Positions 39,602 through 57,655 of a stretch of DNA of 64,000 nt are shown in pieces. A model generated the notes under the pieces. The model did no database searches and was not told where the DNA came from. It saw only the letters and a list, made by a program, of their open reading frames with translations. Positions within the stretch are counted from its first letter, which is position 1. Each line of letters starts with the position of its first letter. Source of the stretch: Maritalea mobilis (lineage in GTDB: Bacteria > Pseudomonadota > Alphaproteobacteria > Rhodobacterales > Rhodobacteraceae); the NCBI RefSeq assembly GCF_019800885.1, contig NZ_JAHVKE010000001.1:372001-436000 (forward strand), given 5' to 3'. A program made the translations under genes and the position numbers.

Positions 39602-40579
39602 ATGACCGACACCACCGCCCCCGCCGCCAGCCATAGCCGGCTGGAGCATCTGCCCGTGACATTCCACGCCATCCTGATGGGCCTTTTCGGCCTGACGCTG
39701 GCCTTGCGCGCGGCCTCGCACGCACACAGCTGGGCCGAGCCGCTGGCGCAAGGGATGCTCTGGGTCGGGATCGCGGCCTTTGCCGCCATAGCGCTGGTCT
39801 ACCTGACCAAGGTCCTGCGCTACCCAAGCGCGGTGGTGGCCGAATGGCATCACCCGGTGAAACTGGCCTTCTTCCCCACGATCTCGATCTCGCTGCTTCT
39901 GATGGCGACGGCGATGAACACCGATTTCCCCGCGATCGCGCGGATCTTCTGGGTGATCGGGACGGTCCTGCAGGGCGTTCTGACGCTGTCGGTCATCCAT
40001 AGCTGGATCAGCCACCGCGCTTTCGAGGTCGGGCACCTGAACCCCGCGTGGTTCATCCCGGCGGTGGGCAACATCATCGTGCCGGTGGCCGGTGCGCAGA
40101 TGGGCTATACCGACATCAGCTGGCTGTTCTTTTCCGCCGGTCTGATCTTCTGGATCGTGCTGCTGGTTCTGGTCTTCAACCGGCTGATCTTTCACAATCC
40201 GCTGCCGGGCAAGCTGTTGCCGACCATGCTGATCCTGATTGCGCCGCCCGCCGTGGGCTTCGTCTCCTATTTCCGGCTGGTGGGTGAGGTCGATACGTTC
40301 GGCATCCTGCTGGTGAACATGGGCTATGTCTTTGCCGCGCTGGTGTTCATGGAACTGCCCAAACTTGCCAAACTGCCGTTCGCGCTCAGCTGGTGGGCGC
40401 TGAGCTTTCCCCTGGCGGCGCTGTCCATCTCGTCCTTCCTTTACGGCGCGCAAACCGGGAGCACGGTGCATGACGCCATCGGTCTGATCGTTCTGGGCGT
40501 GCTGGTGCTTGTCGTGGCGGGCCTGATCCTGCGCACGGCGCTGGCGATCGGGCGGGGCGAGATCTGCGTTCCGGAATGA
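39602..40579 (+). CDS. SLAC1/TehA-family anion channel protein
   Basis: Integral inner-membrane protein of 325 residues with about ten helices in tandem helical hairpins. Family marks include LPVTFHAILMGLFGLTLALR in helix 1, WHHPVKLAFFPTISISLLLM and NPAWFIPAVGNIIVPVAG with the pore-lining phenylalanine region. Relatives carry tellurite resistance (TehA), sulfite or dicarboxylate export functions. GGGAAGGGA lies about 8 nt ahead. Transported anion not determinable. Confidence 0.9.
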   Translation: MTDTTAPAASHSRLEHLPVTFHAILMGLFGLTLALRAASHAHSWAEPLAQGMLWVGIAAFAAIALVYLTKVLRYPSAVVAEWHHPVKLAFFPTISISLLLMATAMNTDFPAIARIFWVIGTVLQGVLTLSVIHSWISHRAFEVGHLNPAWFIPAVGNIIVPVAGAQMGYTDISWLFFSAGLIFWIVLLVLVFNRLIFHNPLPGKLLPTMLILIAPPAVGFVSYFRLVGEVDTFGILLVNMGYVFAALVFMELPKLAKLPFALSWWALSFPLAALSISSFLYGAQTGSTVHDAIGLIVLGVLVLVVAGLILRTALAIGRGEICVPE

Positions 40580-40585
40580 CTGAAC

Positions 40586-40613
40586 GGGGCGGAGACCTCC
40601 CGGTCTCCGCCCC
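40586..40613. terminator. Strong hairpin after the TehA-like gene
   Basis: A 12-bp perfect stem GGGGCGGAGACC / GGTCTCCGCCCC with loop TCCC, 6 nt past the stop codon. It is followed by two further palindromes rather than a T tract. Confidence 0.65.
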
Positions 40614-40615
40614 GC

Positions 40616-40657
40616 CGAAAATCTCGAGATTTTCGTCCGTTTTCCTCGAGGAAAACG
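40616..40657. repeat. Pair of perfect 20-bp palindromes
   Basis: 40616-40635 is a perfect palindrome with half CGAAAATCTC, and 40638-40657 is another with half CGTTTTCCTC; both have a CTCGAG centre and no loop. They are 2 nt apart and occupy the gap between convergent genes. A small CCCG-TTTA-CGGG hairpin follows over the speE stop. The arrangement recurs at 53255-53322. Confidence 0.85.
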
Positions 40658-40663
40658 CCCCGT

Positions 40664-41530
40664 TTACGGGATAAGCCGCGCCACGTAGGGGGGCAGGGCA
40701 AAGGCGCCCTGGTGCACTTCGGGCGTGTAGTAGTCGGTCGACAGTCCCGCCGCCTCGAACCGTGCGCGCAAGGTGGCGAGGTCCGTCTGACGCGCCGTGC
40801 CGTTGGTGCCCCAGCCGAAGGCCATCGGCCCACCCGCATAGGTCGGGATCGTGGCGAGGTAGCAGGTGGCATCCGAGAACAACGCGCGGAAGGCGCGCAT
40901 CGTGTTGGTCAGCTCTTCGCCCTGCAGGAAGGGCACCCCGTTCTGGGTCACGAGGATGCCGCCCTCGGCCAGGCGGGCGCGGGCGTGGCCATAGAAGGTG
41001 TCGGTGAACAGAACCTCGCCGGGGCCGACCGGATCGGTGGAATCGACGATGATGACGTCGTAGAAATCGGCGTTCTCCTTCATGAAGCCCGCGCCGTCCG
41101 CGATCACGAGATCAAGGCGCGGGTCGTCGAAGGCCCCCGCCGAGATGCCGGGCAGGTATTGCTTGCAGAAGTCCACCACGCCGCCGTCGATCTCGACCAT
41201 GGTGACCTGCTCGACCCCGTCATGCTTCAGCACCTCGCGGGCCATGCCACCATCGCCGCCGCCGACGATCAGTACGCGCTTGACGTTGCCATGGGCGAGG
41301 ATCGGCACATGGGTCAGCATCTCGTGATAGATGAAATTGTCGGCCTCGGTGACCTGCACCACACCATCGAGCGTCATGATCCGGCCAAAGGTCGGGTTCT
41401 CGAAGACGCGGATACGCTGGTGCTCGGTCGCGCTGTCGTAGAACTCGGTCGTGATGCGCAGACCCTGCAGGTGATCGTCGTGCAGACGCTCGATGTTCCA
41501 GTCGGCGGGCCAGTCGGTGCGATCGGTCAT
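40664..41530 (-). CDS. speE: Spermidine synthase
   Basis: Transfers aminopropyl from decarboxylated SAM to putrescine. The 288-residue enzyme has ENPTFGRIMTLDGVVQVTEAD, the SAM-binding VLIVGGGDGGMAREVLKH and catalytic VDSTDPVGPGEVLF. It starts at 41530, 89 nt after speD, with which it forms a two-gene pathway unit. Upstream open-frame codons are not part of the gene. Confidence 0.96.
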   Translation of the reverse strand: MTDRTDWPADWNIERLHDDHLQGLRITTEFYDSATEHQRIRVFENPTFGRIMTLDGVVQVTEADNFIYHEMLTHVPILAHGNVKRVLIVGGGDGGMAREVLKHDGVEQVTMVEIDGGVVDFCKQYLPGISAGAFDDPRLDLVIADGAGFMKENADFYDVIIVDSTDPVGPGEVLFTDTFYGHARARLAEGGILVTQNGVPFLQGEELTNTMRAFRALFSDATCYLATIPTYAGGPMAFGWGTNGTARQTDLATLRARFEAAGLSTDYYTPEVHQGAFALPPYVARLIP

Positions 41531-53254: not shown

Positions 53255-53322
53255 ACGGAAATCTCGAGATTTCCGTGCGGAAAACTGCAGTTTTCCGGGC
53301 AGAAAAACTCGAGTTTTTCTGC
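53255..53322. repeat. Array of three perfect palindromes (22, 20 and 24 bp)
   Basis: 53255-53276 (half ACGGAAATCTC), 53278-53297 (half CGGAAAACTG) and 53299-53322 (half GCAGAAAAACTC) are each perfect, loopless palindromes, 1 nt apart. They exactly fill the space between the convergent P450 gene and the 87-residue protein gene. The design matches 40616-40657. Probably a bidirectional terminator or a protein-binding array. Confidence 0.88.
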
Positions 53323-53324
53323 AC

Positions 53325-53588
53325 CTAAGCTTCATGTCGGGTTTTCGATGCTTCCTTCGGGCGCAGGATGCGCACCGGTTCGCGGTTGCAGAAGATGATG
53401 ATCTGACCGGCATTCTCGATGGCGCGAAAGCCACGGCGATACACCTCTTCGACGAAGGCCTCCTTGCCGAAATAGCGCTCGATATCCCGCGCGCTGCGCC
53501 GCAGGACCTTGCCGTCGCGGACAAGGCGCGTGCCGAAAACGTCGGCAAGAAAGGCCTCGGGCGAATGGTTCGGTGGCAGCTTTTCCAT
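53325..53588 (-). CDS. 87-residue protein of unknown function
   Basis: A soluble basic/acidic mixed protein (MEKLPPNHSPEAFLADVFGT, RRSARDIERYFGKEAFVEEV, IIIFCNREPVRIL). Its size and style are those of a small conserved Rhodobacteraceae protein, but no domain is recognised. A CtrA-like box lies 24-38 nt ahead of the start. It is convergent with the P450 gene. Confidence 0.7.
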   Translation of the reverse strand: MEKLPPNHSPEAFLADVFGTRLVRDGKVLRRSARDIERYFGKEAFVEEVYRRGFRAIENAGQIIIFCNREPVRILRPKEASKTRHEA

Positions 53589-57236: not shown

Positions 57237-57319
57237 GCGCGTGAAACCAATGCGGGAGGGCTGCGACGGATCAGAGGCGCGATCGTCGTAACGGCCGGAC
57301 AGAGCAGAGAGGGGGGGGG

Positions 57320-57655
57320 AAGTGCAGGCTTCTGTTGCCAGGTGCCTGCGAACCCCGCCTTACGCGGCTAGGCGCAAGGGCTTAAATTTCGATTCCTCGA
57401 ACTGCTTACGCAGCCAGAGCAACCGGAGCACGATTGTCGTTGGCAATTATGCTTTACGGACCGATAACGGTGGTACCTCACCGGGACAAAGCCACGTCTT
57501 TACACGCTCGTCGATCCTGTTTCGGCCCCATGATCCCCCAACGACGGGATGTTTGGTGGAGCCGCCGGGTACCGCCCCCGGGTCCGAACCGCTTATTTCA
57601 CGCACGTTTATGCCCATAGTTCCCGAAGGAACATGCCAAATATGGGCGTATTGCG
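57320..57655 (-). ncRNA. ssrA: tmRNA, circularly permuted two-piece form
   Basis: Rescues stalled ribosomes and tags the peptide. Read on the minus strand, the acceptor piece comes first: a UUCG hairpin (GTTCC-TTCG-GGAAC), a T-arm with GGTTCGGACCC, and a 3' end GGCTCCACCA at 57554. A 24-nt spacer follows, then the coding piece beginning GGGGCCGAAACAGGATCGACG at 57529. GGGGCCG pairs with CGGCTCC as a 7-bp acceptor stem. The tag frame lies at 57444-57406. Outer ends are approximate; the 3' part has a GCAGGC/GCCTGC hairpin (57324-57349). The permuted arrangement is that known for alphaproteobacteria. Confidence 0.93.
57406..57444 (-). CDS. tmRNA proteolysis-tag reading frame
   Basis: Twelve codons and TAA encode ANDNRAPVALAA, starting at the resume codon GCC. 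The ALAA end is the ClpX recognition element and the ANDN start matches the SspB-binding part of other tags. This is the internal frame of the ssrA coding piece, not an independent gene. Confidence 0.93.
   Translation of the reverse strand, partial: ANDNRAPVALAA

Follow-up and report, generated by a model that had tools for sequence, protein, structure and literature searches.

In Maritalea mobilis, a cytochrome P450 gene (51899 to 53251, plus strand; PF00067, E 8e-72) and an 87-amino-acid open reading frame (53325 to 53588, minus strand), the latter without a Pfam or NCBIfam match, are the upstream genes of two converging transcripts; positions refer to the window, that is, the whole stretch of 64,000 nucleotides that was analysed. 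The 73-nt gap between them is filled by three perfect palindromes. The first, of 22 bp (halves ACGGAAATCTC and GAGATTTCCGT; 53255 to 53276), corresponds to a 9-bp stem with a UCGA loop, the second, of 20 bp (CGGAAAACTG and CAGTTTTCCG; 53278 to 53297), to an 8-bp stem with a UGCA loop, and the third, of 24 bp (GCAGAAAAACTC and GAGTTTTTCTGC; 53299 to 53322), to a 10-bp stem with a UCGA loop. All three are exact and separated by 1-nt spacers, and the array starts 3 nt past the P450 stop codon and ends 2 nt short of the convergent stop codon of the 87-amino-acid frame. The first-pass annotation had the lengths, spacing and position of these palindromes in a convergent gap exactly right, and the arm pattern that it described recurs: a unit of about 20 nt with an outer C-G/G-C cap, an A-run or T-run, a C and a 4-nt centre.

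The same annotation judged the array to be far beyond chance and suggested hairpins in the transcripts of either direction, and both statements agree with our results. The window holds five palindromes of at least 20 bp against about 0.3 expected from Markov-shuffled copies of it, and shuffles of seven stretches contained no tandem arrays with A/T-run arms. Transcripts of either strand are predicted to fold into consecutive 8- to 10-bp hairpins with tetraloops, at -36.1 kcal/mol for the plus strand and -34.0 kcal/mol for the minus strand (z -6.1 for each).

The remaining two of the five palindromes form a tandem pair at 40616 to 40657, where two tetraloop hairpins follow a GC-rich hairpin with a 13-bp stem and a 4-nt loop (40585 to 40614). 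This second array lies between a TehA/TDT-type transporter gene (39602 to 40579, plus strand) and a spermidine synthase gene (40664 to 41530, minus strand). The window also carries a tmRNA gene (57315 to 57649) with the tag peptide ANDNRAPVALAA.

Copies, placement and unit architecture

Further copies, for which the first-pass annotation had proposed a genome search, are present. The 3.67-Mb genome contains 19 copies of AAACTCGAGTTT and 10 of TTTCCTCGAGGAAA, and 0 of the reversed control of either. A covariance model gave 70 strand-wise matches in the whole genome, which we tallied by hand as 34 places, so most genes do without an array; the copy number extrapolated from sampled stretches is an overestimate compared with this count. 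The sample of the genome itself covers 856 kb, and since some of its stretches were picked around hits, the array density that it gives is biased. The arrays in this sample have two or three units each and were found 6 times in convergent and 9 times in codirectional gaps, with no divergent or intragenic cases, so the initial picture of a convergent-gap feature is too narrow. An array scored as inside a gene at C1:594948 has a low-scoring predicted frame as its host, which is probably spurious, and one array in Leisingera was labelled divergent by a simple gene finder. Single 30-bp perfect palindromes at C2:501175-501204 and C2:512361-512390, with centres CTAG and CCGG, stand outside the tandem family.

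The arrays sit close behind genes, with a median distance of 7 nt from the stop codon (34 distinct arrays, drawn from this genome and its relatives) and the first hairpin mostly 2 to 16 nt past the stop codon in the sampled DNA. The codirectional gaps with an array (n = 9 in the samples) are 103 to 351 nt long compared to a median of 54.5 nt for the others (p = 5e-4), and because of this length most of them look like ends of transcription units. The upstream genes supported by NCBIfam or Pfam encode the P450, the TehA-type transporter, spermidine synthase and DnaN, and reading of translations added others, such as leuA-, gltX-, SulP- and Fur-like genes; by inspection, this appears to be a diverse set, as would suit a general punctuation.

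An array consists of two to four hairpins, each with a stem of about 8 to 10 bp that contains an A/U run and a tetraloop that is usually UCGA or UGCA. The centre-to-centre pitch is 22 to 24 nt in 37 of 39 cases, across several genera with quite different arm sequences. Of 67 units, 53 have a self-complementary loop, with six different tetramers among them; free loops would give fewer, and a simple RNA hairpin does not account for the excess. It could stem from the use of both strands, from a preference for UCGA/UGCA or from exchange among copies. Along the sense strand, A-run and U-run hairpins follow one another with no consistent pattern by eye, and G-U versus A-C mismatches as a test of strand gave a mixed outcome with few cases.

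Conservation of stems and distribution in relatives

That selection acts on the hairpin is seen between this genome (G000) and a congener (G304), where 24 hairpins at 10 alignable loci with flanks of 75 to 94% identity could be compared. Changes affected 12 of 384 stem positions and 20 of 96 positions in the central four nucleotides (Fisher p = 5e-8), 13 of the 24 hairpins had a changed loop, and 3 of the 8 changed stem pairs were compensatory replacements of one Watson-Crick pair by another. The aligned arrays were found by similarity and with intact stems required, which under-counts broken copies and may overstate the conservation of the stems, but the excess of loop changes within the aligned copies stands despite this filter. 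Since the stems are almost frozen while the central four nucleotides change freely, each unit is a stem with a tetraloop, and the palindromes are not functionally loopless, as they had been called at first. Conserved stems, compensatory changes and a variable loop are the features expected of a structured RNA, and all three were found here. Pair covariation over 43 arrays was strong, with a score of 0.786 compared to 0.174 for shuffled and at most 0.427 for slid pairings, with the stems preselected as paired.

The P450 site itself follows the same course. In G304, hairpin 1 is unchanged, hairpin 2 has the loop UGCC and has lost its outermost pair with the other stem pairs the same, and hairpin 3 has the loop UCGC on the same stem; in a more distant congener (G013), the site has three hairpins with new stems. 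At the second array in the window, the GC-rich hairpin and its G304 orthologue differ in their stems, where two pairs show compensatory changes. An identical T-to-C stem change occurs at two unlinked G304 arrays (C1:1289468 and C1:2464994) and, within the genus sample, only in G304, which hints at exchange between copies.

The arrays are restricted to one lineage, the Rhodobacteraceae. Model matches were found in 40 of 246 genomes of the order, representing 27 of 101 genera that all belong to this family, and in none of 141 other alphaproteobacterial genomes sampled from the class. Downstream of the P450 gene, tandem hairpins with other centres are present in Roseicyclus, Roseibacterium (CTTGCAAG), Rhodophyticola, Leisingera (TTCGAA), Pseudohalocynthiibacter and metagenome-assembled genomes labelled Rhodobacter, and many other genomes have no tandem hairpins at this site. 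At offset 19026 of a Roseibacterium persicicum stretch, the palindromes of a tandem set are centred on CTTCTAGAAG, which appears to be a further dialect of the array architecture. No Rfam family reached its gathering score, the best hits falling far under the cut-off, and searches of the open-access literature found no description of repeats of this type in Rhodobacter or Roseobacter.

A candidate element for mRNA 3' ends

To our knowledge, how mRNAs end without U-tract terminators in GC-rich alphaproteobacteria is poorly defined. Based on the placement at gene ends, the folding on the sense strand and the free loops, we think that the arrays are probably a lineage-restricted cluster of 3'-untranslated-region hairpins that define and protect mRNA 3' ends. 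In the transcript, the hairpins would fold successively and fix the mRNA 3' end by stopping 3'-to-5' exonucleases that trim from a nearby termination site, which would probably be Rho dependent; an additional effect may be pausing or termination of RNA polymerase. The first hairpin is usually so close to the stop codon that a terminating ribosome would sit over it, and the second, outside the ribosome footprint, would keep the end protected, which is perhaps why the unit is tandem. At a convergent gap, one DNA element would serve both transcripts. It speaks for this reading that, for the Escherichia coli gal mRNA, one report attributes the full-length 3' end to exonucleolytic processing of terminated transcripts (PMC11925234).

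Three observations count against such a role at mRNA 3' ends: the excess of self-complementary loops, the presence of only 34 arrays in the genome, and the position of some arrays right against the start of the next gene in the same direction. An example of the last is the dnaN-recF gap (C2:361888-361953), where 5 nt separate the end of the array from the recF start and the recF ribosome-binding site may lie under a hairpin arm; in another genus (G124), the gap is likewise filled, by an array of four hairpins (C1:2735-2825) that also ends about 5 nt ahead of recF. This placement argues against complete termination there, since it would silence recF unless there is an internal promoter, and partial termination, or a block to exonucleases working from the 3' end, would fit better.

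The closest competitor is a clustered intrinsic terminator without U residues, in which the release of RNA polymerase is the work of the tandem hairpins themselves; we regard this as possible though doubtful. It matches the hairpin-cluster termination units of Gupta and Pal (PMC8355165), in which hairpins lie less than 15 nt apart, mostly no more than 20 nt from the stop codon and often without poly-U, and the arrays, in which at least two hairpins with spacers under 15 nt lie no further than about 80 nt from the stop codon, have that form and stand at gene ends, mostly ahead of long gaps. However, the U-tract is missing, the stems are A/U-rich with G-C pairs at their ends only, A-run and U-run hairpins on the sense strand show no consistent pattern by eye, and the dnaN-recF arrays of both genera lie directly ahead of a gene. 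The canonical bidirectional intrinsic terminator is hardly credible and is already contradicted by the sequence: the position at a gene end and the symmetry in both directions would suit it, but neither a GC-rich stem with a U-tract nor a terminator-like match is present in the array, which the first-pass annotation had also called unlike a normal terminator, and palindromes that resemble ordinary terminators (AAAGGCCGGGG...TTT) do occur in this genome at convergent gaps elsewhere. Canonical terminators were found at 1 of 21 array-bearing ends compared to 17% of other convergent and 9% of distant codirectional ends, although these numbers are small. Two palindromes that resemble ordinary bidirectional terminators (AAA-GC stem-TTT; C1:165556-165581 and C1:265721-265744) are 20 to 22 nt from both stop codons, as opposed to 2 to 16 nt for the arrays.

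Copying around the genome as a mobile extragenic repeat of the REP/BIME type would account for the many extragenic tandem palindromes, for a centre typical of each genome (CTCGAG here, CTGCAG common in R. persicicum) and for the same substitution at two unlinked G304 loci. We give it little credence, because the stems differ among copies with no apparent conserved flank, orthologous sites were kept over genera while their sequences changed, and the Y1 transposase of such systems (RAYT, PF01797) had 0 matches in the genome, with five control genomes positive. Very improbable, in our judgment, is an array of double-stranded DNA sites for a nucleoid protein or gyrase, or a cruciform, which the first-pass annotation had listed among its options. 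The perfect symmetry of most units, which extends through the centre, and the regular pitch would suit it, but about 23 bp does not make a whole number of helical turns, loop symmetry is lost between close orthologues, and divergent or intragenic copies were absent from the samples of this genome. A protein-binding site would have its bases and symmetry under selection, centre included, which is not what we see; as the arm sequences diverge widely while pairing persists, this option is left unsupported.

A more specific version of the 3'-end role, in which a dedicated protein or end-forming apparatus of the Rhodobacteraceae reads the 22- to 24-nt pitch and the UCGA/UGCA loops as a 3'-end signal that exchange between copies keeps uniform in each genome, seems unlikely to us. 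In the broader form that we prefer, the arrays are a recognisable and evolutionarily conserved candidate end element with a clear anatomy, so that the question can be tested at named loci. They could sharpen the annotation of transcription units across the Rhodobacteraceae, and they supply short modular hairpin cassettes for the engineering of these bacteria.

Relation to known systems

Canonical intrinsic (L-shaped) terminators also place hairpins 3' of stop codons, but the arrays differ from them in their two to four units, their A/U-rich stems with terminal G-C pairs and their lack of a U-tract. With REP and BIME elements they share short extragenic palindromes that are often tandem and present in many copies per genome. 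In contrast to those elements, they come without a match to the IS200-type transposase (PF01797) in the genome and without an apparent GTAG/CGTC-type tag (array flanks read by eye gave no shared tag, and the stems are variable), and their arms vary with compensatory change at retained orthologous positions. The closest likeness is to the units of Gupta and Pal from 2021 (PMC8355165), which also have at least two closely spaced hairpins near the stop codon and often no poly-U. Those units are generic and defined by structure only, whereas the arrays have a fixed pitch of 22 to 24 nt, a recurrent tetraloop and an A/U-run stem, can be found genome-wide by a model and occur in one family only, with termination being a candidate function here. 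The arrays may be a sharply defined, family-specific form of the hairpin-cluster termination unit (PMC8355165).
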